This document shows positions 38,585 to 59,024 of a stretch of 64,000 bases of DNA, piece after piece. How positions within the stretch are numbered: the first letter of the stretch is position 1; each line of letters starts with the position of its first letter. Under the pieces are notes generated by a model, which was given only the letters and a program-made list of their open reading frames with translations, did not search any database and was not told the DNA's origin. This DNA comes from Pseudomonas asgharzadehiana. GTDB taxonomy: Bacteria > Pseudomonadota > Gammaproteobacteria > Pseudomonadales > Pseudomonadaceae. The position numbers and the translations under genes were made by a program. The DNA lies in assembly GCF_019139815.1 (NCBI RefSeq), contig NZ_CP077079.1:3534001-3598000 (forward strand), given 5' to 3'.

Positions 38585-38614
38585 AAAAACAAAACCCGCC
38601 TCTAGGGCGGGTTT
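38585..38614 (-). terminator. Leader terminator (attenuator) before the threonine dehydratase
   Basis: On the minus strand AAACCCGCC-ctaga-GGCGGGTTT, a perfect 9-base stem, is followed by TGTTTTTCC. It lies upstream of the gene, about 40 bases before its ATG, so it would stop transcription in the leader. GGCGGG in the preceding leader ORF (38634-38639) can pair with its 5' arm and prevent it forming. Confidence 0.8.
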
Positions 38615-38629
38615 GGGTACAGCCGAGCG

Positions 38630-38695
38630 CTATCCCGCCAAATAAGGAATGGCGGTAATAATGCTCGGCTGGCTGCGGAAGGCTTGAAATGTCAT
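38630..38695 (-). CDS. Isoleucine/threonine leader peptide
   Basis: 21-codon ORF, MTFQAFRSQPSII then TAIPYLAG. Codons 12-16 are ATT ATT ACC GCC ATT (Ile Ile Thr Ala Ile). CCGCC across codons 14-15 can pair with GGCGG at the end of the ORF, giving segments 1 and 2 of a classic four-segment attenuator; segments 3 and 4 form the terminator. No Shine-Dalgarno sequence precedes it, and the predicted transcription start is within a few bases of the ATG, so it may be read as a leaderless message. Confidence 0.65.
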   Translation of the reverse strand: MTFQAFRSQPSIITAIPYLAG

Positions 38696-38818: not shown

Positions 38819-39019
38819 ATGGGCATCGTCAAGATCACCGACCAATTACACGAACAACTGCGCCTGGCCAGCGCCGCGATGGACCGTTCCATCAACGCCC
38901 AGGCCGAGTTCTGGATCAAGATCGGCCTGCTCGCCGAACTCAATCCCCACCTGCCCTACAACGAACTGATCAACAAACTGTTGCTCGATAAACCCGACTT
39001 GATCCGGGGGCGCAGTTGA
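38819..39019 (+). CDS. ParD-like antitoxin-family protein
   Basis: 66 residues beginning MGIVKITDQLHEQLRLASAA with MDRSINAQAEFWIKIG, a pattern of the ParD-like family, whose N-terminal ribbon-helix-helix part binds DNA. There is no ParE-type toxin; the partner is a methionine aminopeptidase gene whose ATG overlaps its stop (TGATG). An in-frame GTG three codons earlier is less likely. This pairing recurs in proteobacteria, so it may be a regulator of the adjacent enzyme rather than an antitoxin; that is inference. Confidence 0.78.
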   Translation: MGIVKITDQLHEQLRLASAAMDRSINAQAEFWIKIGLLAELNPHLPYNELINKLLLDKPDLIRGRS

Positions 39020-39771
39020 TGATCAAGACGCCCGCACAACTGGCAATCATGCGCGAATCCGGGCGCCTGCTGGCCCAGGTCTTTACGATGCTCGACGGTT
39101 TTGTCGCCGCCGGCCGTTCCACCCTTGAGCTGGACGCTGCTGTCGAAGCCTTTATCCGCAACGAGTTGAAAGCCCGCCCGGCCAGCCTCGGGCAATATGA
39201 CTACCCGTTCTGCATCAACACTTCGATCAACGAGGTGGTGTGCCACGGCATGCCCAGCGCCAAGGACATCCTCAAGGACGGCGACATCATCAACATCGAC
39301 ATCACCCTGGAAAAAGGCGGCTACATCGCCGACTCCAGCAAGATGTACATGGTCGGCAATGTCGCCCCCAAGGCCAGGCGCCTGGTCGAGATGACGTTTG
39401 AAACGATGTGGGCCGGTATCCGCCAGGTCAAGCCCGGCGCGCGGTTGGGCGACATCGGCCATGCGATCCAGAGCCACGCCCAGGCCAACGGCTACAGCGT
39501 GGTGCGTGAATACTGCGGCCATGGCATCGGCAAACAGATGCATGAAGAGCCGCAGGTCCTGCACTTCGGCCGCCCCGGCACCGGGCTCGTACTGCGCGAA
39601 GGCATGGTGTTTACCGTAGAGCCCATGCTCAACCAGGGCGGCGCCAAAACACGCAGCCTCAAGGACGGCTGGACGGTGGTGACCCAGGACAACAGCCTGT
39701 CGGCGCAGTGGGAACATACCGTGGCGGTGACGGCAGACGGGTTTGAGGTGTTGACCCTGCAACGGGGCTGA
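39019..39771 (+). CDS. map: Type I methionine aminopeptidase
   Basis: 250-residue cytoplasmic metalloprotease that removes N-terminal Met. Metal ligands are in NIDIT (Asp), DSSKMY (Asp in IADSS), CGHGIGKQMHEEP (His), FTVEPML (Glu) and SAQWEHTVAV (Glu). It is co-translated with the ParD-like gene. It is probably an additional map copy, since the housekeeping gene normally lies by rpsB in pseudomonads; that cannot be seen here. Confidence 0.92.
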   Translation: MIKTPAQLAIMRESGRLLAQVFTMLDGFVAAGRSTLELDAAVEAFIRNELKARPASLGQYDYPFCINTSINEVVCHGMPSAKDILKDGDIINIDITLEKGGYIADSSKMYMVGNVAPKARRLVEMTFETMWAGIRQVKPGARLGDIGHAIQSHAQANGYSVVREYCGHGIGKQMHEEPQVLHFGRPGTGLVLREGMVFTVEPMLNQGGAKTRSLKDGWTVVTQDNSLSAQWEHTVAVTADGFEVLTLQRG

Positions 39772-39830
39772 CGCATGCCCGGCGCCCCGCCCCGGCATCA
39801 CCAGGTCGGGGCACCGTCAAGCGTGTGGAG

Positions 39831-40850
39831 TCAGCCTTTTTCTAGGTGACGCAGGCGGTCCTGAAGCTTGATACGCTCGGTGGTTACCCGCTCCGGGTAA
39901 CAGCGCATGAACATATTGGTAAAGTGCGTGCCGTAATGAATGCGCTCACCGTTGAGCGGATCCAACAAGGGCCGGGCCGAAGCGTTGAAAGCGGGCTCGT
40001 GAAAATAGGCCATGGCGAAGCGTTCGCGGGTGTTGAGCGTTACCTTGTGCGGCGTCGATAGCAGATAACCGTGGGTCATGAACTGCAAAATATCACCGGG
40101 AAATACGGTGAATACGCGTGGCACCGGTTTGACGAATGTCCAGGGTTCGTCATTTTCGAATAACCCCGCGGTACTTTCGCCAGGCAGCCAGTTGCGCTTG
40201 CGCTGCTCGCCTTCGACCGGGGGGCGAATGTATAAACCACCCACCTCATCCTGTGTCGCAATGACCAACATGCCATAGTCGGTATGGGCGCCAATCCCAC
40301 GGTGGGTATGTGCCGAGCTGGCAGGGAAGCGCAGCACGCGCATATGATGCCAGCCATCCCGACTCAGGGCTGTTAACGCGTTTATCTCCAATTCCAGGCC
40401 CAGCGCCACCAACTTGAGCAACTTCTCGCCGGTCACATCCAGTTCCGCCAGTAACGCTTTCATGCTGTCGCGGTACTCGTCGTTGGGCCACGGCACAGGA
40501 CCGTGGCACGGCCAGCCGTCCTTGACGCGTTGATCATCCAGCGGCAGGTCTTTGCAGAGGGTGAAGATTTCCGATTGATCCTGCTCACCGGCGGTGACCT
40601 CTTCGCCAGAGGCGACATACCCGGCATAGGTCAGTTCGCTGACCCAGCGCGACTTGTCTTGTCTGGGCTGCTTGAAAAAAGCCTTGCTGGCGGCCATGGC
40701 CCTCTGGACCTTCTGGTCCTGTTCGTCATGGGTGCCGACCTGGAAAATACCGTCAGTGCGCCATGCCTCAATGAGCTTGCGGCCCAGTTGGTGATCGGCG
40801 TGGCTGCCGGTTACGGCTTCAGGCAGGGTGAAGGTGGTTAACTCAGTCAT
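39831..40850 (-). CDS. efe: Ethylene-forming enzyme (EFE) homologue, 2OG/Fe(II) oxygenase
   Basis: 339 residues, recalled to align without gaps to the P. syringae/savastanoi EFE, which converts 2-oxoglutarate to ethylene plus CO2 and hydroxylates L-arginine in a side reaction. Iron ligands His189, Asp191 (GIGAHTDYG) and His268 (STPHKV), 2OG-binding Arg277 (NTRERF) and Phe283, and arginine-site residues Glu84, Arg171 (WHHMRVLRFP) and Arg316 (FMRCYP) are all at the family's numbering. WPCHGPVPWPN and GLYIRPPVEGE are near-identical to EFE. AAGGAGACACGAC precedes the ATG at 40850. It uses more A/T-ending codons than its neighbours, suggesting transfer. It may be co-oriented with sfnG, but 285 bases separate them. 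Ethylene production is inferred. Confidence 0.9.
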   Translation of the reverse strand: MTELTTFTLPEAVTGSHADHQLGRKLIEAWRTDGIFQVGTHDEQDQKVQRAMAASKAFFKQPRQDKSRWVSELTYAGYVASGEEVTAGEQDQSEIFTLCKDLPLDDQRVKDGWPCHGPVPWPNDEYRDSMKALLAELDVTGEKLLKLVALGLELEINALTALSRDGWHHMRVLRFPASSAHTHRGIGAHTDYGMLVIATQDEVGGLYIRPPVEGEQRKRNWLPGESTAGLFENDEPWTFVKPVPRVFTVFPGDILQFMTHGYLLSTPHKVTLNTRERFAMAYFHEPAFNASARPLLDPLNGERIHYGTHFTNMFMRCYPERVTTERIKLQDRLRHLEKG

Positions 40851-40902
40851 GTCGTGTCTCCTTAAATCCATTAAAGAGACGTGCATTCACGGATGTGACG
40901 CT

Positions 40903-40986
40903 GAACTGCTCCATCAACGGAACTGCTCCAGGCCCGGCATTGCAGGCCTGGATCATGTACGTCGTGTATGTTCCCGTGCGGGAACA
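40903..40986. promoter_or_regulatory. Repeat-rich control region upstream of efe
   Basis: Contains GAACTGCTCCA twice (40903-40913, 40920-40930; 17-base period), an inverted repeat CCAGGCC/GGCCTGG (40928-40951), and TGTTCCCG-tg-CGGGAACA (40969-40986), a near-continuous 18-base palindrome. These lie 50-140 bases before the efe ATG. Likely regulator sites and/or the end of the sfnG transcript. Confidence 0.5.
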
Positions 40987-41135
40987 GTCCTTATAGACCC
41001 CGGCAGCGGGCCTGAAAATAACCAGCTGTCGACTTTACTCGGGGCGCGTCAATGGCCCGATAACTGGGGACAGCGGCAGGCCTCCCTGCCCACACGATGA
41101 TTTGAACCAGGCGCTGCGGGGCGGCAACCGATGGA

Positions 41136-42221
41136 TCAGGCCACTTGCCTGATCCCCGCCTTGGCCTCCAACTCACGCACCAGCGGCAGCACGCGCTTGC
41201 CGAAGTACTCCACTTCTTCCTGAAAATGCAGGAACCCCGCCAGCACCAAGTCCACGCCCACCGCCTTGAGCGCAACGATGCGTTCGGCGATCTGCTGCGG
41301 GGTGCCGATCAGGTTGGTCTTGAAGCCGTCGTTGTACTGCACCAGGTCTTCAAAGCTCGATTTGGCCCAATTGCCCTCGCCTTCAGGTGAAGCCTTGCCG
41401 GCCTGTTTAGCCGCGTCGCCAAAGGCGTTGACCGCTTCCGGGTCGGCCTTGTCGATGATCTCGGCCAGCACGGCGCGGGCTTCTTCTTCGGTGTCGCGGG
41501 CGATCACAAAGGCATTCACGCCGACTTTGACCGAATGGTTATTCGCCGCCGCCTTGGCGCGAATATCGTCGACCTGGGCCTTGATGCCCTCCGGCGTGTT
41601 GCCGTTGGTGAAGTACCAGTCCGAAACGCGTGCCGCCATGTCCCGCGCGGCCCGTGAGCTGCCGCCCTGGAACACTTCCGGCCGGCCCAGGGGTTTGGGC
41701 TTGAGGGTGTAGTTGTTGAAGCGGTAGAAGTCGCCCTTGAAGGTGAAATCGTCCTGGGTCCAGATGCCTTTGAGGGCGCGGATGAATTCTTCGGAGCGGC
41801 GATACCGCTCATCGTGTTCCAACCAGTGTTCGCCGATGGCCTGGAATTCGCCCTTGAACCAGCCGCTGACGATATTCACGGCGATGCGGCCGTTGGTGAG
41901 CTGGTCGATGGTCGCCAGTTGCTTGGCCGCCAGCGCCGGTTGCCAGGGGCCCGGCAGGATCGCGGCGATCACTTTAAGCGTGGTGGTCGCGGCCAGCAGC
42001 GCGTGACTGAACGCCACCGACTCATGCTGGTTGTCGGCACCGTAGCCGGCGGTGAACCGGATCTGGGTCAGGCCATATTCAAAGCCGGCGGCTTCGGCCA
42101 GTTGCGCCAGTTTGCGGTTGTAGTCGATGCCCCAGTGGGTGCGTTGCTCGATCTTGCTGACCACCAGCCCACCGCTGACGTTGGGCACCCAATAGGCAAA
42201 TTTCACGGCTTGCTGACTCAT
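41136..42221 (-). CDS. sfnG: FMNH2-dependent dimethyl sulfone monooxygenase SfnG
   Basis: 361-residue bacterial luciferase-like flavin monooxygenase that turns dimethyl sulfone into methanesulfinate, used for sulfur scavenging. KFAYWVPNVSGGLVVSKIEQR, NGRIAVNIVSGWFKGEF and YFTNGNTPEGI are typical of SfnG rather than SsuD. It needs FMNH2 from a separate reductase, not in this window. A good sigma54 promoter sits 40 bases upstream, in line with control by the SfnR enhancer-binding protein known in P. putida. Confidence 0.93.
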   Translation of the reverse strand: MSQQAVKFAYWVPNVSGGLVVSKIEQRTHWGIDYNRKLAQLAEAAGFEYGLTQIRFTAGYGADNQHESVAFSHALLAATTTLKVIAAILPGPWQPALAAKQLATIDQLTNGRIAVNIVSGWFKGEFQAIGEHWLEHDERYRRSEEFIRALKGIWTQDDFTFKGDFYRFNNYTLKPKPLGRPEVFQGGSSRAARDMAARVSDWYFTNGNTPEGIKAQVDDIRAKAAANNHSVKVGVNAFVIARDTEEEARAVLAEIIDKADPEAVNAFGDAAKQAGKASPEGEGNWAKSSFEDLVQYNDGFKTNLIGTPQQIAERIVALKAVGVDLVLAGFLHFQEEVEYFGKRVLPLVRELEAKAGIRQVA

Positions 42222-42260
42222 CGAACGCTACCTCATGTACAGGGATGTACCCAGCACTTG

Positions 42261-42276
42261 AGCAGCAAGCGTGCCA
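42261..42276 (-). promoter_or_regulatory. Sigma54 promoter of sfnG
   Basis: TGGCACGCTTGCTGCT on the minus strand: GG at -24 and GC at -12 with 10 bases between them; transcription start expected near 42250. Confidence 0.75.
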
Positions 42277-42374
42277 GCCATGGGCAAACGCCCGTGCCAT
42301 GGGCGCTGCGGCGAAAAAACCGCCCCTGGCGCAGGTAAAGGTCAATGTCAGGGATCGGGCCGGTTTGTCGAATC

Positions 42375-42394
42375 GCTGTTGCTGCAGCAACAGC
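42375..42394. promoter_or_regulatory. 20-base perfect palindrome between divergent sigma54 promoters
   Basis: GCTGTTGCTGCAGCAACAGC reads identically on both strands. It lies about 40 bases from the -24 box of the rightward promoter and 100 bases from that of sfnG, so it may be a shared enhancer-type site for SfnR or a related activator. Confidence 0.55.
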
Positions 42395-42433
42395 AAGCGC
42401 ATTGAACCCCCTGTAAACATTGGCCCTGGTACC

Positions 42434-42449
42434 CGGCACGGACTGTGCA
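42434..42449 (+). promoter_or_regulatory. Sigma54 promoter of the acyl-CoA-dehydrogenase-like gene
   Basis: CGGCACGGACTGTGCA: -24 GG and -12 GC with 10 bases between, start near 42460, 30 bases before the ATG. Confidence 0.7.
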
Positions 42450-42490
42450 ACCCCCCCTGTACATTCACCCTTGCCCCCGGAGCCTTGCCC

Positions 42491-43729
42491 ATGACCGAAC
42501 ACCACGTCATCAACCCGCTGTCCATCGGCGTCGACTACCCCACGCTGGCCGCGCGTTTCCGGCCGATCTTCCAGCGCATCGCCGACGGCGCGGTGCAGCG
42601 CGAACTCAGCCGCACCCTGCCCCATGAGCCGATCCAATGGCTCAAGCAAGCCGGTTTCGGCGCGGTGCGCGTGCCGGTGGAATACGGCGGCGGCGGCGCG
42701 TCCCTGCCGCAACTGTTCCAGTTGCTGATCGAACTGGCCGAGGCCGACTCCAACGTGCCCCAGGCCCTGCGCGGGCATTTTGCTTTTGCCGAGGACCGCC
42801 TGAATGCACCGCCGAGCGCCGGGCGTGACCTGTGGTTCAAGCGCTTTGTCGAGGGCGACATCGTCGGCTGCGCCTGGACCGAAATCGGCAACGTGGCCAT
42901 CGGCGACGTGGTGACTCAGGTCAGCCCCGACGGCGATCAGTGGAAGCTCAACGGTGAAAAGTTCTACAGCACCGGCAGCATTTTCGCCGATTGGATCGAC
43001 GTGTACGCCCAACGCAGCGACACCGGCGCCGACGTGATTGCCGCCACCCGCGCGCGTCAGCCTGGGGTGGTACACAGCGACGACTGGGACGGGTTTGGCC
43101 AGCGCACCACCGGCAGCGGCACGTCGCGCTTTACCGATGCGGTGGTAGAGGCGGATAACGTGATCGATTTTGCCACCCGCTTCAAATACCAGACCGCGTT
43201 TTACCAGTTGGTGCTGCTGGCCAGCCTGGCCGGCATCGGCCGCGCGGCGTTGCGCGATGTGGCCCATCAAGTGCGCAGCCGCAAGCGCATCTACAGCCAC
43301 GGCAATGCGCCGCATGTAAGCCAGGATGCACAGGTGCAACAGGTGGTGGGCGAAGTGGCGGCGCTGGTGTACGCCGCCGAGGCCAGTGCGTTGCGGGCGA
43401 CGCTACCGGCCCAACAGGCCTACGTGGCGCGGTTTGGCGGCGACGATGCCGCAGAGCGCGAAGCCAATGTGGCGGCCGAGATTGAATCGGCGACGGCGCA
43501 GGGGGTGGTGTCGGACTTGATCCAGCGCGCCACCAGCCAGTTGTTCAATGCGCTGGGGGCGTCGGATGTCCGCCAGGGCAAGGCGCTCGACCGGCATTGG
43601 CGCAACGCGCGTACCGTGTCGTCGCACAACCCGGTGATCTACAAGGCGCGCATTGTCGGCGATTGGGTGATCAATGGGACCGAGCCGCCGTTTGTATGGC
43701 AGATCGGCAATGGCCCGGGCAAAGACTGA
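42491..43729 (+). CDS. Acyl-CoA-dehydrogenase-fold flavin oxidoreductase, sulfur scavenging (SfnB/DszC-like)
   Basis: 412 residues of the acyl-CoA dehydrogenase/DszC monooxygenase superfamily: helical N-domain with RVPVEYGGGGAS, a beta domain (GCAWTEIGN, WKLNGEKFYSTGS) and a C-terminal helical domain ending with GDWVINGTEPPFVWQIG. The catalytic Glu of true acyl-CoA dehydrogenases is not evident, which favours a flavin monooxygenase acting on sulfur compounds. It is divergent from sfnG with its own sigma54 promoter. Start at 42491 (CCGGAGCCTTGCCC upstream); the frame is open further upstream but would run through the promoter region. Confidence 0.85.
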   Translation: MTEHHVINPLSIGVDYPTLAARFRPIFQRIADGAVQRELSRTLPHEPIQWLKQAGFGAVRVPVEYGGGGASLPQLFQLLIELAEADSNVPQALRGHFAFAEDRLNAPPSAGRDLWFKRFVEGDIVGCAWTEIGNVAIGDVVTQVSPDGDQWKLNGEKFYSTGSIFADWIDVYAQRSDTGADVIAATRARQPGVVHSDDWDGFGQRTTGSGTSRFTDAVVEADNVIDFATRFKYQTAFYQLVLLASLAGIGRAALRDVAHQVRSRKRIYSHGNAPHVSQDAQVQQVVGEVAALVYAAEASALRATLPAQQAYVARFGGDDAAEREANVAAEIESATAQGVVSDLIQRATSQLFNALGASDVRQGKALDRHWRNARTVSSHNPVIYKARIVGDWVINGTEPPFVWQIGNGPGKD

Positions 43730-52199: not shown

Positions 52200-54461
52200 T
52201 TAGAAGGCATAACGCAGGCCAACGTTCACTGCCGCTTTCTGCTTGATTTTGTCACTGGTACTGGTTTCAACGTCGGCGTGCATTTGCAGATCCTGCGTAA
52301 ACTTCACCGCCACACCGGCACCATACTTGGTACGCGAGCCCGACAAATCATTGTTAAACGCCTGATTATTGATCAGGACCTTGTTGTTGTCGGCAAACTC
52401 GTGGACCACGGCCATACGCAAGTAAGGTTTAATAAGTGTGCCGTCGTCGAGCTGGAACTCATGCCCAACGGTCGCACCGGCCTCGGCTGTCCTTGAGCGG
52501 GTACGCTCACCTTCCACTTGCAAACCATTTTTCAGGCTGTATGTTCCGCCCTGAACCACGATGGTCGACAGTCGGCCGTAAGGTTCAATATAGGAACTTT
52601 CCCCGAGTGTGATATGACGGCCGAACTCCGCCGACAGACCACCGCCCACATTGCTGTAGTTGCCCTTGGTGGAGGTGTTATCACTGAGGGTTGCCTTGAC
52701 TTCATTCTGGAACCGGTTGGCTTTGGCAACCGCATCAAAGTAGAAACCGCTTTCTTCATCCATCCAGGTTGCATAAGTACCCAGGAAGTAACTCTTGACC
52801 GTACCGGAGGAGCCGCGAACCGGGTTCACGTCGGAATTACTGTGACCACCAAATACACCTACCTTCCATTGGCTATCGCCCAGCGGCATATCGGCACCCA
52901 GGGAGAAACCTTGCAAGTTCTGCGTGTAGCCGGTCCCTGAGCTCTGGGATACCTCATATTTGCTGCCGAAACCACGGATCCACAGGCCTGTGCTCTTCGG
53001 GGAGTAGCGCAATTCGCCCATCCGCGCGCGCAACGAGCCCTCTTCCGCGGTCATGATGGTCACCGGGGTGTTGAACAATGCCGTCACCACGCGGGCGCTG
53101 CGGCTCATGACTCGGGTTTGGGTATCCAGGAACCAGTCATTGCCTTCCTTTTTCAGGTTGTAGGCATAGGCGCCCATGTCAACCGGACCGTCCTTGAGGG
53201 CAAAGGCCGCATCACCGCCACCGGTGTGCACAACCTGGGTTTTGACCAATTCGGCACCACTGGCCGACAGCGCCAGGCTGTGATTGCCCGTAGCTTGGCC
53301 GGTCACATTGATGAAGTCCGTCTTGCCTTGGTCAAAGTCGGTGCCCATGACGAACGTGCCGTCGCCGGACAGTGTCGAGAGGTTCAGTTGATAAAACTCA
53401 TTCGGCGCGCCCATGGTCACGGTGCCACCGGCCATGTTAAGCGCACCCACCTGACTGTCACCGGTCATGTTCCAGTTGGAAGCGGCGCCCACGTTCAAGC
53501 TGGAGACATTCTGCAATTGGCCTGTCAGCTCGGCGTTGTTCTGCAGGCTCAAATGGACAGTGCTGGTGGCGTCGGCAACCACATTGCCGACCAGATTCCG
53601 GCTGTTATCCACATTCATCGTCGCCGTGGCACCGCCAGAAACGCTCAGCAGATTGCCATTGCCGCCCTTCAATGTGGAGCCATTCAACACATCGATGGCT
53701 ACCACCGGAACTCGGTTTGGCGTACCCCTGACGGAGATAGCCGAACCAATAGCTCCCTCGACCATGGAGTTGTCCAGAACCAGTTTGCCATCTGTTGTAT
53801 CTGCACGACCGCGGGTGAACGATACCCCATGACCGGCGCCGAGAATGGTGCTTTGGCTGGCTGTCGCCGTGCCCCCGGACAGGGCGAGCCCGAATGCCCC
53901 GGTTCCCGTACCCTGCACCACAGTGCCCCGTTCGAAGTGCAACTCGCTGCCGCTGCTGGCTTCCGCGCCGCCAATAGCTCCGCTGATCGTACTGTTGGCG
54001 ACCTGAACCGATGAACCATTTGACGTACCCAACACACCAAACGCCTGCAAGGCTACGCCGCGACTATTGGTAATCGTACTGTCGTTGATAAAAGCGTTAC
54101 TGCTTTCAAGACGCACGGCGCCCAGAATAGGGTCGCTCGAAGAAACCTGTGCTGAGTTGATATTGACGGTAGAACCGCGTTCAGCACGAATACTGTTCGC
54201 CACGCTGCCACTGTTCATGTTTAACGTGGAGGTTGTCAGGCCAATGTCTGTTGCTGTCGCGCGATTCATATTCAGCGTCGACTGGCCCGACAATTGCCAA
54301 TCCGTTGACTGCGTAGTGTCATCAATGGTTCTTTGCTCACCGTTACCCACCTGCACCGCCTGTGCCTGACCCTGCAGCGCGGCAAACAAACAGAATGTAA
54401 CGGTGGGGATTTTCATCATCGCACTCAATGGCTTGAGCTCGAACGTATTCAGTGCCGACAT
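52200..54461 (-). CDS. Autotransporter with beta-helix passenger (type Va secretion)
   Basis: 753 residues from ATG 54461. A signal peptide lies near residues 15-37 (MMKIPTVTFCLFAALQGQAQA); the true start may be that internal ATG. A Ser/Thr/Asn-rich repetitive passenger (about 40-480, motifs such as STLNMNSGSV, NSTISGA) suggests a right-handed beta-helix. The last 265 residues are a pertactin-type barrel ending in Phe (GLRYAF). No protease triad is seen. Third gene of a minus-strand run after two modular proteins; a separate promoter is possible because 235 bases intervene. Confidence 0.9.
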   Translation of the reverse strand: MSALNTFELKPLSAMMKIPTVTFCLFAALQGQAQAVQVGNGEQRTIDDTTQSTDWQLSGQSTLNMNRATATDIGLTTSTLNMNSGSVANSIRAERGSTVNINSAQVSSSDPILGAVRLESSNAFINDSTITNSRGVALQAFGVLGTSNGSSVQVANSTISGAIGGAEASSGSELHFERGTVVQGTGTGAFGLALSGGTATASQSTILGAGHGVSFTRGRADTTDGKLVLDNSMVEGAIGSAISVRGTPNRVPVVAIDVLNGSTLKGGNGNLLSVSGGATATMNVDNSRNLVGNVVADATSTVHLSLQNNAELTGQLQNVSSLNVGAASNWNMTGDSQVGALNMAGGTVTMGAPNEFYQLNLSTLSGDGTFVMGTDFDQGKTDFINVTGQATGNHSLALSASGAELVKTQVVHTGGGDAAFALKDGPVDMGAYAYNLKKEGNDWFLDTQTRVMSRSARVVTALFNTPVTIMTAEEGSLRARMGELRYSPKSTGLWIRGFGSKYEVSQSSGTGYTQNLQGFSLGADMPLGDSQWKVGVFGGHSNSDVNPVRGSSGTVKSYFLGTYATWMDEESGFYFDAVAKANRFQNEVKATLSDNTSTKGNYSNVGGGLSAEFGRHITLGESSYIEPYGRLSTIVVQGGTYSLKNGLQVEGERTRSRTAEAGATVGHEFQLDDGTLIKPYLRMAVVHEFADNNKVLINNQAFNNDLSGSRTKYGAGVAVKFTQDLQMHADVETSTSDKIKQKAAVNVGLRYAF

Positions 54462-54642
54462 GGTCAATCACTCTTAATATGAGGCCAACAAAATCGGTTC
54501 GGCTCGCTACCTGCGAATAGGGCCTTACCTCTGCGGCGCCAGAATAAAAATTAAACGCTTTCTTTTATGTAGGAAAAATCTGCACTCCCACGGTTAAACC
54601 GCTGTGAGCGGAGTGATCTATCAAATGCAATATGATCAGAAT

Positions 54643-54672
54643 GTTCCCCCTCCCACGAAAGAAAGGGGGAAC
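54643..54672. terminator. Hairpin after the second modular protein gene
   Basis: GTTCCCCC/GGGGGAAC with a 14-base loop, 25 bases beyond the stop; no T-tract on the minus strand, so weak as a terminator. Confidence 0.4.
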
Positions 54673-54696
54673 CTGCCGCTATCTGACTAACAAGCC

Positions 54697-56742
54697 CTAA
54701 GGACCGACAACTGGAGACAAGTCGCAATAACTCGTCGACAGCGTCGTACGTATGTTGACGGCGGCCTCACCGCGCCCGGTAGTGCCGTCGTCCAACGCCA
54801 CCGTGACAACCGCCTCCGCGCGCCCGAGGCGAGCTTCTTTAAGAAAACTGAACGGTATATTGAAGGTATGACCGTTGTCCTTGATGACTCTTGTGACAGT
54901 CACGCTGTAAGTCTGCTTGCGGTCGTCAATCGGAGTGCCGGTACGAGGTCGGAACAACCGCAGCTCCAGCTTCAATTGTTGACCCTCGGCCATCCTCGTA
55001 TCCGCCGGCACAAAGATCTGTCCTACAAACGTGTTTGGCGTCGTCAACGGAAGGACCCTTAACGAATCGCAGTTCCATTGTTCAGTTAGCCCTGTTCCCC
55101 GGACCCCCAAATATCGAGGCGCTACCAGCGTAGACGTCACGGCGTCTATAACCTCGACCGGTGTATCCGGCGAACGATTGCGGTTATCGGCCGCCGTTGG
55201 GACAGGCGTTGATGCAATGAAATAATGGACATTTTTAATGCCGTTCCCTGCCGCAGCTACATAGCTCCAAGGGAATTCCCACCTGACGATTGCGCCTTCT
55301 GCTTGAGTGGTAATTTCAAAGGGAGGAGCCACTAAACTGCCGTCGCTCCATACCAGGTGAATCCACATGCCAGGTGCCGGCACGTCAGCGCCGACCCATA
55401 ACTCAACCTCAGCAGTGACAGGGTTGCCGGCGTGCGCAAATCTCAGCGTGTTGAGCTCAGTCGACCCCTGACCAAAAATCTTCACAGGGAGCAGTCTGGT
55501 GTTCGGGCTGCCGGGTGTTCCGGGGTTGTCCGGCCCTGTGACACTGAAATCCACATTGATCGTTGTGGTCGGGCCGTCGATAACCTCACCGTCTCGGCGC
55601 AGGTTATATTTCACAGCGGTCGGTTTCGGCCCTTTTGTCGTCCCGTAGTCAGCCAGGGCCAGTGGGGTCAGGAGGGCTTGATTGAGCGTGATGGGGAACT
55701 GGGTAACAGGGAACCACTGGCTCGCTGGCTGCCCGCCCCATATGATCTGATATTGGTCTTTGGTCAGGTCGAAGTTTGTGTAGGCTGCAAGGCTTCCCGT
55801 AGGGCCTGGGGTAAGGTCGGCAATATTGAGCAAGTTATCAATAAGGTCCGGGGCCTGGTCAATAATGATCGGCTGTAGATTCTCTGGTGCCGGCGCCAAC
55901 GCTACGGTGAAAGGCCTGGAAGCCACTGATGGCAAGCCGGGCCGGTCCATCCGGTCACTGATTGTATAAATAAGCTTGTATTCACCACTTTGGGTGATAG
56001 CACTTGCAGGCAATGTAAAGACGTTACCGGTTTGCAGCATCGGCCGTGGTGGAACGAGCCCTCCAACTTCTTCCGCGTCCAGCGCCGTATCGCCTTTGGT
56101 CCAGTAAAAGCGGATGACATCGCCCGGATGCCACTTCCCGCTTTCAATCGCATAAGCGTTGTCGGGAATGCTAAATGGCAGACCGCCCGCCGTGGCGAGG
56201 TGAGCAGCCGTAACCGGAGCACCCGCCGGCAATGACCCCGTGTATTGCGGTGCGGGTGGCCGCACCTTATTGCCGATGCTTTCATAGGCAGTATATTGGT
56301 CGAACTCCACCTTCACTTCTGGCGAGTACTCCCCCACGTCAGAGGGTCTGTCCACGCTGCCTGGAATGCTCGGGTCCGCAAAGTCGTTAACAAACAATTG
56401 ATGACGGAGCCGTCTTTTACCATGCGGAAATCCGCCCGAGCCTGCCGGTGCATCAATCACTACAGAAATATTGCCGCCTGCGGTCGCACCGAAAAACTGT
56501 ACGGGACCAAATATTCTGGTCCAGGCGTCGGGTAGTGAACTGTCCGGGTCTCGCGAGAAAATTTCGATCCAATCACCGTCCTCTGAAAAGTCGCCGGAAG
56601 GGCATAACAGCCTCAGGCTGCTAGTCGCCGCCACCCTTGAAACAAGGCCTATGGCAGTATCAATTACATCTTGGACCTCGATAACTTCCAAGGTAGGCGA
56701 GCCGCCAATAATTACCGCCTTTGTAGAAATTTTATCTATCAT
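54697..56742 (-). CDS. Large modular protein of unknown function (Ig-like repeats), copy A
   Basis: 681 residues, no recognised family, signal peptide or membrane segment. At least three modules of about 130-150 residues repeat a beta-sandwich-like pattern: a Trp-containing strand (DVIRFYWTKGD, QYQIIWGGQP, WIHLVWSDG), a Pro/Trp strand (TLPASAI, WEFPWSYVAAAGNG), an aromatic strand (KLIYTISDR, VKYNLRRDG, VHYFIASTP), then a Pro-rich linker such as VTGPDNPGTPGSPN. An N-terminal unit of about 115 residues and a C-terminal one (ending STSYCDLSPVVGP) differ. GGAGAACATGAA precedes the ATG. It pairs with a similar protein upstream. Codon use is visibly less GC-rich than that of the core genes. Confidence 0.65.
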   Translation of the reverse strand: MIDKISTKAVIIGGSPTLEVIEVQDVIDTAIGLVSRVAATSSLRLLCPSGDFSEDGDWIEIFSRDPDSSLPDAWTRIFGPVQFFGATAGGNISVVIDAPAGSGGFPHGKRRLRHQLFVNDFADPSIPGSVDRPSDVGEYSPEVKVEFDQYTAYESIGNKVRPPAPQYTGSLPAGAPVTAAHLATAGGLPFSIPDNAYAIESGKWHPGDVIRFYWTKGDTALDAEEVGGLVPPRPMLQTGNVFTLPASAITQSGEYKLIYTISDRMDRPGLPSVASRPFTVALAPAPENLQPIIIDQAPDLIDNLLNIADLTPGPTGSLAAYTNFDLTKDQYQIIWGGQPASQWFPVTQFPITLNQALLTPLALADYGTTKGPKPTAVKYNLRRDGEVIDGPTTTINVDFSVTGPDNPGTPGSPNTRLLPVKIFGQGSTELNTLRFAHAGNPVTAEVELWVGADVPAPGMWIHLVWSDGSLVAPPFEITTQAEGAIVRWEFPWSYVAAAGNGIKNVHYFIASTPVPTAADNRNRSPDTPVEVIDAVTSTLVAPRYLGVRGTGLTEQWNCDSLRVLPLTTPNTFVGQIFVPADTRMAEGQQLKLELRLFRPRTGTPIDDRKQTYSVTVTRVIKDNGHTFNIPFSFLKEARLGRAEAVVTVALDDGTTGRGEAAVNIRTTLSTSYCDLSPVVGP

Positions 56743-56911
56743 TTCATGTTCTCCATTATCACCGGCATGCTCTGCTCATCGAGCAAATACATACATTCAA
56801 AGAGAGTTCGGTTTTTTCATACAAACTACTTGTCAACGCATTTACATACGACACGCATAACACACACAACTCCGGTTACCGCCCGGACGTTCAATACACC
56901 GAGGAATACTT

Positions 56912-58840
56912 TTATTCAGACCCGGTACCCGATGGCCCACAAAAGCCCCCTGCTCCATTCTTGCGGTCAATTGGCACATATTTGGTATCTGAATACCCTA
57001 TCTCAACACCATTTCGCACCACAGAGTATTTTGCCGACCCTGCGGAATAATCACGTAACGGCTTGATCAGGTTTTCATAGTCCGTTATCTGGAACGTATG
57101 AGATGTTTCACCTGCTTGCCATACATGACTCATGGTATGAGCCGTCGAGAGAATGGCATCTTCATTTAGATATCTCCGAAACCCCTGCCATGTCAGCACC
57201 ACCAGATCCCCTGGCTTCAATACATTCGGCGCCGGATTGACCACCACGTTCACCACCTGCCAAATAGGTGGTTGAGTATCACAATTAAGAAATCTGCTTG
57301 AGTGTAGAAACGACTGAGGAAAACTCGGTTTTGAGTAAACAACAGGCGTAATAAGGTTGACCGCAACTATTTGGTCAGGCGACGACTGTTGATTGACGCC
57401 ATTATCTGTTTGGTAATACACCAACGTTGTCGAATTGCTGCCGGCGGCTTGGATCACCGGCCAGGGAATCGGATTATCAAATTCAACAACCGCCCCTGCT
57501 TGATCATTGAGCTTCACGGTATAAGTCGCAACGGGTGCCGCCTGGCCTGGCCAGAAAAGATTTACTTTCTGACCCTCAACCGGTTTATCGAACAACGTGA
57601 AGTAAGCTCTCACCGGCCCAACGGAATCGCGGCTATCCAGGACATTGGGAACGTTGGAAACCTGGCCCTGTATGTTAACCAAGGCCAATTGACTGTTCAG
57701 CAATGCGGGCGCCAGCGGGTTTTCCTGGCCTGCGATCGTCATGTCCACCGTCACCTGTTTAGGTCGGGAACGCACGCCTTGGCCCGTATCCCCTGCACGG
57801 CGAATGTAGTAACGCACCGGTAAGTCAATGATCCGGCGCAGGTTCGCGCCCTTGGCAATTAATACACTCCACGGCACGGGAACCGTGAGAGGCAACGTGT
57901 TGACAGGCACGGCAGGAAGCAAGCTACCGTCCCACTCAACCACACACTGGTCATCAGGCATGGCGTTGTCATACTGACGCACCCTGACCGAAACAACAGC
58001 GCGTGCATCTGCCCGATTAACCAGCAGATCCGAGTCATACGCCGGCACCTCAGGCATCGACAAATTGGCTGGCGGCGCGGTCAAATCAATTGGTACATAG
58101 CCAACTAGCGAATTGCCAGAAGTATTACCGGCGCGGTCCCGTAACTTATAAAATAAATAAAGTATGGGGAAGCCGGCAAACTTCCGAATCTCCGCTACTG
58201 GAATATTCACAATCATTGGCCCACTGATGGGGGCAAAGGCTTGCCTGTGAATGTCCAGTCCTGTGGGTGGCGTGTCACTGCCTCTCAAAAAACATAACAC
58301 GGTGTCTCCCGTCTTGCGATCTAGGTAATCGCCCGGCACTTCCACTTCCACCGACAGTTGGTTGCTTAAGGCGGACTCGGTAATCGGATTAATCAGAAAC
58401 TTTGCGGGATTCAGGACCTGACCAGCACCCGGTGGATTTTTATCGATAATGATAGTGCGGGTAAATGAAGTCTCGTACACTTGGCTGTCTGAAAACTCGT
58501 TTCTGATACGATAAAAAATCTCAACTGTCGCGCTAGTTTGAAAGTAATCTGAAGAAATGAATATTGAGTAAGGAAAATCAGCGTCCGTAATCGGCCCCTT
58601 CAACTCCACTGTTAGAAATTCATCACCGGCGGCTCCCTTAACGTCCCAAACGAACGTAATCCAATCACTCGTACCACTAGGAGGCAGCTGCGACCAAGGA
58701 GTCGTTATTTGAATCTCCAAGTCCGAAAACAAATATTTTACGGGAAGCAATCCGTCTGGCTGCAAGTTGACAACTTCAAGTGCCGGAAGCGTCGGTGTGT
58801 CGTTAGTGTTAATCGCATTACCCGTTGAAGTCGTGTCCAT
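56912..58840 (-). CDS. Large modular protein of unknown function (Ig-like repeats), copy B
   Basis: 642 residues from ATG 58840 (GGCGGGAAAATC upstream; frame open further upstream but without a plausible start). About five modules of 110-130 residues with the same pattern as copy A: WITFVWDVKG, CVVEWDGSL, NLFWPGQAA, VVLTWQGF as the Trp strand; IPVAEI, VPWSVLIAKGAN, IPWPVIQAAGSN as the middle strand; VRYYIRRAGD, LVYYQTDNG as the aromatic strand. No signal peptide. LLPVKYLFSDLE near residue 32 echoes LLPVKIFGQG in copy A. 169 bases separate the two genes. Function unknown. Confidence 0.65.
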   Translation of the reverse strand: MDTTSTGNAINTNDTPTLPALEVVNLQPDGLLPVKYLFSDLEIQITTPWSQLPPSGTSDWITFVWDVKGAAGDEFLTVELKGPITDADFPYSIFISSDYFQTSATVEIFYRIRNEFSDSQVYETSFTRTIIIDKNPPGAGQVLNPAKFLINPITESALSNQLSVEVEVPGDYLDRKTGDTVLCFLRGSDTPPTGLDIHRQAFAPISGPMIVNIPVAEIRKFAGFPILYLFYKLRDRAGNTSGNSLVGYVPIDLTAPPANLSMPEVPAYDSDLLVNRADARAVVSVRVRQYDNAMPDDQCVVEWDGSLLPAVPVNTLPLTVPVPWSVLIAKGANLRRIIDLPVRYYIRRAGDTGQGVRSRPKQVTVDMTIAGQENPLAPALLNSQLALVNIQGQVSNVPNVLDSRDSVGPVRAYFTLFDKPVEGQKVNLFWPGQAAPVATYTVKLNDQAGAVVEFDNPIPWPVIQAAGSNSTTLVYYQTDNGVNQQSSPDQIVAVNLITPVVYSKPSFPQSFLHSSRFLNCDTQPPIWQVVNVVVNPAPNVLKPGDLVVLTWQGFRRYLNEDAILSTAHTMSHVWQAGETSHTFQITDYENLIKPLRDYSAGSAKYSVVRNGVEIGYSDTKYVPIDRKNGAGGFCGPSGTGSE

Positions 58841-58919
58841 GATTTTCCCGCCGCGTCGGTGAGTCACTATTACGAACTGCGTTAAAACAGAGTGAATACC
58901 CAATGCCGCTCTACCGATA

Positions 58920-58935
58920 CTGTCAAAGTTGACAG
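58920..58935. promoter_or_regulatory. 16-base palindrome upstream of copy B
   Basis: CTGTCAA-ag-TTGACAG, 80 bases before the copy B ATG and 140 before ptxS. Distinct from the PtxS operator; candidate operator for the modular-protein block. Confidence 0.45.
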
Positions 58936-59024
58936 GTGACGCTGCCGTTCGTCGGGCGAGGGCACCGGCGATTTCCACGTTTTCACGCAAATACACTTGA
59001 CGTTTTCAGGTTGTTGCGGTTTCC

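Follow-up and report, generated by a model that had tools for sequence, protein, structure and literature searches.

Does a chromosomal gene of Pseudomonas asgharzadehiana encode an enzyme that makes the plant hormone ethylene, and does that gene carry its own means of control? We addressed this in a 64,000-nt stretch of the genome (contig NZ_CP077079.1 of assembly GCF_019139815.1, positions 3,534,001 to 3,598,000; hereafter the window), in which an earlier sequence-only reading had proposed a complete gene, efe, for an ethylene-forming enzyme (EFE). The comparisons and structure prediction described here point to a working EFE whose gene entered, or was kept in, this genome as a ~1.3-kb unit with its own leader, a reading to which we assign a probability of about 0.93; the product very probably makes ethylene. 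It is a member of a well-known enzyme family, and the constrained leader is the new part if borne out. Three other Pseudomonas loci serve for comparison: L100 from P. brassicacearum subsp. neoaurantiaca, L102 from genome G040 and L101, which encodes the PK2-type EFE.

The efe frame runs uninterrupted for 339 codons on the minus strand, from an ATG at 40850 to a stop ending at 39831, encodes the Pfam domains DIOX_N and 2OG-FeII_Oxy, and is under purifying selection. We rejected an alternative start at ATG 40886 (+12 codons), as the AAGGAG fits the ATG at 40850 and, by eye, the extended frame runs into a stop codon in L102 and does not stay in register in L101. A search of the PDB aligned the product without gaps to PK2 EFE chains 22nw, 6vp4 and 5v2t over residues 1–337 (E ~4e-165), as the sequence-only reading had claimed, and the product shares 238 of 339 residues with the PK2-type protein of L101, which is our numbering reference and differs from the PDB sequence in at least one residue. 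The previously named His189, Asp191, His268, Arg277, Phe283, Glu84, Arg171 and Arg316 were all found at the reference numbering. Conservation extends from the 2-His-1-Asp iron site and the 2-oxoglutarate (2OG) arginine (PK2 positions 189, 191, 268 and 277) to the whole arginine site (Glu84, Val85, Thr86, Arg171, Phe314, Arg316 and Cys317), the hydrophobic 2OG pocket (Leu173, Phe175, Ile186, Val196, Ala198, Ala279, Ala281 and Phe283) and the long loop with Glu215, where the alignment is gapless. Of the 23 ligand-site residues given by PMC9101411, none is missing. Differences from PK2 were seen at 6 of 36 inspected positions: P93S, F159L, T163S, L194M, W247F and C280M. Ser93 is the residue in 46 of 47 EFE-clade rows, where PK2 has Pro. 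PMC12329707 reports, as unpublished observations, unchanged PK2 activity with either C280M or C280L, and Phe at the W247 position in an active ancestor.

The predicted model of the product has a double-stranded beta-helix fold like that of PK2 EFE. In the tree, the check that the sequence-only reading had proposed, the product sits within the clade of measured ethylene formers; the Pseudomonas EFEs form a single clade, and the window's enzyme falls in a five-row clade at 100/94. Together with the intact frame and site residues, these results uphold the call of a complete EFE gene. The accompanying view that EFE occurs mainly in a few plant pathogens and Ralstonia was not supported: 45 of 72 loci, spanning four phyla, are 58–76% identical, and PMC9101411 adds five further measured formers from cyanobacteria, Myxococcus and Ralstonia. 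Wide spread is also known from PMC12329707, PMC3946592 and PMC10467617, as well as PMC9101411 itself. P. cannabina pv. alisalensis carries efe (PMC3610874), and PMC4528175 reports a search for efe in P. corrugata and P. mediterranea that found none.

Several points weigh against this reading. No NCBIfam model matched the product, and model confidence (pLDDT) falls below 50 at residues 187–189, an iron ligand included. Support is weak for deep branches within the EFE clade, with 18 of 44 inner branches drawn open, and the rows L004 and L005 were tied to assayed enzymes by strain name and a match to the paper at residue 85, not by accession. The ratio of ethylene formation to arginine hydroxylation is not readable from sequence, our literature search found no activity test for the EFE of P. 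brassicacearum, the nearest named relative, and the other places of efe together with one efe-less relative cannot alone tell gain from loss. Support for the enzyme consists of frame, residues, clade, predicted fold and purifying selection, from which we infer activity and ethylene release.

In the proposed mechanism, His189, Asp191 and His268 would hold the iron, which would bind 2OG inside the hydrophobic pocket. Arg277 and Arg171 presumably grip the 2OG carboxylates, and L-arginine would sit near Glu84–Thr86 and Arg316. With O2, the main reaction would convert 2OG to ethylene and CO2, and a minor reaction would hydroxylate arginine to guanidine and 1-pyrroline-5-carboxylate (P5C), with succinate (chemistry: PMC10467617). 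Guanidine could then leave through the genome's SMR-family exporter linked to a guanidine-II riboswitch, a genus-wide and not efe-specific route.

Could the product instead be a 2OG oxygenase of other specificity, an arginine or other hydroxylase releasing no or trace ethylene in the manner of PaIPNS or Arabidopsis Din11? Distant family members of the same fold do yield traces only (PMC12329707, Table 1), and most source names among our protein matches read 'isopenicillin N synthase-like dioxygenase' or similar; set beside the site residues and the clade placement, we regard this as very improbable. We leave somewhat more room for an enzyme that forms ethylene in the tube but serves arginine and nitrogen chemistry (P5C, guanidine) in the strain, with ethylene a by-product or the gene seldom expressed. 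The leader pairs the ribosome-binding site, so expression may be conditional, and in the genome a guanidine-II riboswitch precedes the gene of a 104-aa SMR-family exporter (L107 2229-2616; G000:C1:2099228-2099615, minus strand). That riboswitch, however, is present in 23 of 25 genus genomes, this one included, and is therefore not tied to efe; we rejected it as evidence for the gene. PK2 EFE, moreover, yields 570 nmol ethylene versus 167 nmol P5C (PMC12329707, Table 1). We judge this alternative unlikely, and a working ethylene former remains our preferred reading. No guanidine-I riboswitch was found in the genome, and the only match to 1-aminocyclopropane-1-carboxylate deaminase was below its cut-off (235.8 versus 392 bits).

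How did efe come to lie here? The genome is a single 6.107-Mb contig with one EFE (next-best match 29% identical), in agreement with the chromosomal placement first suggested. In relative G004 the gap between map and sfnG is ~0.3 kb and lacks efe, and in G017 it is ~3.2 kb and holds GNAT-, RimK-like- and CorA-family genes; because these two differ there, the spot is variable. At E <= 1e-60, EFE occurs in 4 of 398 genomes sampled from a larger set of the genus (this genome, G153, which is probably P. brassicacearum subsp. neoaurantiaca, G383 and G040), and draws from other centres, which overlap, yielded no Pseudomonas efe loci beyond these four. Both its rarity and the empty site in G004 support the earlier reading. 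In L100, efe is flanked by an HMGL-like gene and an AMP-binding enzyme gene, and in L102 it lies between the same flanks plus a 1699-aa open reading frame (ORF). These flanks stand 12–144 bp apart without efe in at least 8 of 38 relatives, and the same site in the window's genome is filled by ~5.2 kb of other DNA. The contig of G383, with its PK2-type EFE, carries a replication initiator and ParB. efe therefore occupies at least two different places besides a plasmid-like setting. The 1699-aa ORF of L102 (2613-7712, minus strand, genome G040), between the HMGL-like gene and efe, has ToxA_N, leucine-rich repeat and NEL domains.

We propose that efe entered the chromosome, or survived where relatives lost it, as a ~1.3-kb unit with promoter-like site and leader. 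Codon use had been cited as a sign of acquisition, a point we drop: efe GC is 0.581 versus 0.615 +/- 0.033 (14th percentile), and GC at third codon positions (z -0.43) and a score like the codon adaptation index (z -0.35) lie within 0.5 standard deviations, relative to 194 ORFs of the same genome (14 sampled stretches gave 154 and the window 40, efe itself included). Composition gives no sign of recent arrival; codon use is host-typical. This, and the single clade of Pseudomonas EFEs, would also suit a gene that this part of the genus inherited from its ancestors and that relatives lost, instead of one that was gained. Against such ancestry stand its presence in just 4 of 398 genomes, its two settings on large contigs plus one beside replication and partition genes, and the second site found empty in at least 8 of 38 relatives; we consider it quite unlikely. 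As for carriers, viral contigs held no stretch matching the query's six peptide patterns, and the 188 matching PLSDB records were all below 60% identity (best-ranked 42.5%), so we rejected both phage and plasmid carriage.

The ~110 nt between the promoter-like pair and the start codon are conserved among the window, L100 and L102. Leader identity is 92/107 for window–L100, 75/102 for window–L102 and 68/100 for L100–L102, whereas four-fold degenerate efe sites agree at 53/125 (window–L100) and 55/116 (window–L102). Between the window and L100, no similarity was found in the 300 nt past the promoter-like site or the 300 nt after the stop. Because a non-coding stretch exceeds synonymous sites in conservation, and does so at unrelated places, the leader is very likely under selection. 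Likeness extends to the PK2-type L101: the window scored 49, where the best of 500 shuffles reached 36, and L100 only 46 against 44; the L102 and L101 leaders were aligned without shuffle scoring. At E 0.1, blastn joined the L101 leader to none of the other three, and Rfam 15 covariance models gave no match at E <= 5 over 40800-41150. A covariance model built on the three leaders (R1) matched only those leaders among 30 sources and, in the 398 genus genomes, only those leaders and a 27.5-bit site in G148, which we took as chance (it lies between ORFs of a genome without EFE). Because R1 missed L101, likeness of that leader rests on the pairwise scores.

The best-supported structure in the leader is a hairpin that pairs the ribosome-binding site. 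The site pairs with probability 0.998 in the window and 0.998 and 0.990 in the other two leaders, versus a mean of 0.59 over 70 genes, a set that contains these three; L101, with no recognised ribosome-binding word, was unscored. Only 1 of the 67 other genes reaches 0.99, and a smaller run of 53 genes (mean 0.53) had the same outcome. By hand alignment, 3 of 7 hairpin pairs changed on both sides with pairing kept, and for two of these three there is one sequence in which the pair is lost; the long-range stem P1 has 1 double-changed pair and 1 position mismatched in 3 of 4 sequences. This alignment was fitted to the structure, since MAFFT puts the hairpins of L102 and L101 into a shifted register, and the four-leader pair counts cover this hairpin and P1. 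RNAalifold on the three leaders returned P1 (GACGTACAT with ATGCACGTC), inner hairpins and the ribosome-binding-site hairpin, with changes on both sides in 5 of 40 pairs and a slightly unfavourable covariation term (+0.91). Two extra outer pairs are possible for the hairpin at the cost of P1 bases. Relative to shuffles, folding energy gave z -5.24 for the window, -2.93 for L100, -0.37 for L102 and -0.13 for L101. Leaders targeted by RsmA/RsmE show GGA within a hairpin loop at the ribosome-binding site, and the AUGGA loop, present in three of four leaders (window, L102 and L101, not L100), recalls Rsm binding sites.

The leader is a probable control element of translation, acting through the paired ribosome-binding site. 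More tentatively, Pseudomonas efe may travel with its own control RNA, a structured ~110-nt leader that persists at unrelated sites, can be recognised ahead of the PK2-type gene and hides the ribosome-binding site until a signal arrives; arginine, 2OG, guanidine or release of an Rsm-type protein are candidates for opening the hairpin. The leader might instead be conserved as promoter or operator DNA for a protein regulator, its RNA hairpins incidental, which we hold possible at somewhat short of even odds. The promoter-like pair (TTTTCA-17-TATAAG) lies at the leader's upstream edge, although we infer it by eye from the alignment and a consensus promoter scan reported no promoter. Directly downstream, at 40969-40986, is the inverted repeat TGTTCCCGTGCGGGAACA (arms TGTTCCCG..CGGGAACA), the sole site in the window within 3 mismatches on both strands and partly kept in L100. 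Stem P1 is nearly invariant, and the leaders of L101 and L102 fold at shuffle level. Yet conservation runs past the likely transcription start to the ribosome-binding site, the hairpin there is kept with altered pairs in L102 and L101 (by hand alignment) and is matched in strength by only one of the 67 other genes compared, and folding beats shuffles for the leaders of the window and L100. Our literature search found native efe expression control or a leader element nowhere described, nor a chromosomal efe in this Pseudomonas group; both are weak evidence of absence, subscription literature lying mostly outside the search.

Table 1. Position of efe, its leader elements and flanking features in the window.
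Feature	Position	Strand	Remarks
efe, 2OG- and arginine-dependent EFE	39831..40850	-	339 aa, intact; residues, tree, predicted fold
Ribosome-binding site AAGGAG	40858..40863	-	7 nt ahead of ATG 40850; sequence reading
Conserved 5' leader	40857..40965	-	109 nt; shared by efe of L100 and L102, L101 less alike
Hairpin TCTTTAA-TGGAT-TTAAGGA	40859..40877	-	pairs ribosome-binding site; like hairpins in L100 and L102, shorter in L101
3' arm of proposed long-range stem P1	40878..40886	-	ATGCACGTC; invariant in three leaders, hence little covariation
Hairpin P2 (CCAGGCC / GGCCTGG)	40928..40951	-	L102 sequence differs, can pair in its own register
5' arm of proposed stem P1	40955..40963	-	GACGTACAT; RNAalifold, hand alignment
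Promoter-like pair TTTTCA-17 nt-TATAAG	40990..41018	-	by eye from alignment; similar pairs in similar place in L100 and L102
map, type I methionyl aminopeptidase	39016..39771	+	left neighbour; TIGR00500
sfnG, dimethylsulfone monooxygenase	41136..42221	-	right neighbour; TIGR04021, 618.5 bits, cut-off 382.95
Stretch missing in G004 between map and sfnG	39772..41112		efe, leader and promoter; right border approximate

Elsewhere in the window, an sfnB-like dehydrogenase gene lies by sfnG (42245-43729, plus strand); it scores 259 bits versus the TIGR04022 cut-off of 430.9 and may be a divergent relative. The Pseudomonas sRNA P9 (RF00624, 85.2 bits) was found at 38591-38665 on the minus strand. A low-GC stretch (0.49–0.60) at 52200-58996, also on the minus strand, contains an autotransporter with a pertactin domain at 52200-54467 and, next to it, two ORFs of ~690 aa each (54697-56742 and 56912-58996) that matched no Pfam family at E <= 0.001. 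Outside the window, the genome carries an hrcV-type type III secretion gene (L126; G000:C1:982588-984591, plus strand; 825.5 bits versus a curated cut-off of 692.25), so the strain may not be a mere soil commensal.

By releasing ethylene, a bacterium addresses plants in one of their own hormones, and an intact chromosomal efe closer to the P. brassicacearum gene than to the P. syringae type widens the set of pseudomonads worth testing for hormone output. Its differing settings show that the trait moves, which with its rarity is mildly interesting. The conserved leader offers a concrete element for testing efe control; if the proposed control holds, a costly enzyme that drains 2OG would be translated in the right setting only.

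Among known systems, the guanidine-II riboswitch (RF01068) shares this genome and is linked to an EFE product, but it is located elsewhere, and the efe leader has no match to RF01068. PaIPNS of P. aeruginosa (6JYV) and the ancestral Anc357 (9OVH) have the fold and the iron and 2OG ligands of the window's EFE, but are 28–29% identical over the aligned part, differ in arginine-site residues and form trace ethylene only (PMC12329707). Active EFEs of Nostoc sp. ATCC 43529 (69% identity, 22 of 23 site residues) and Scytonema sp. NIES-4073 (67%, 23 of 23; activity for both: PMC9101411) are much closer, but are cyanobacterial, fall outside the Pseudomonas clade and have no leader match at E <= 5. The P. 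brassicacearum subsp. neoaurantiaca EFE (L003/L100) is 76% identical, belongs to the same five-row clade and has the 5' leader in common; it differs in its HMGL-like and AMP-binding neighbours and in M85, where the window has V85. PK2 EFE itself (P. savastanoi pv. phaseolicola; UniProt P32021, PDB 5V2Y and 6VP4) is 70% identical without gaps, with the same 23 ligand-site residues and predicted fold. Unlike it, the window's enzyme has C280M, W247F, P93S and a shorter C-terminus, and its gene is chromosomal, between map and sfnG, whereas the PK2-type copy of L101 shares its contig with genes for a replication initiator and ParB.
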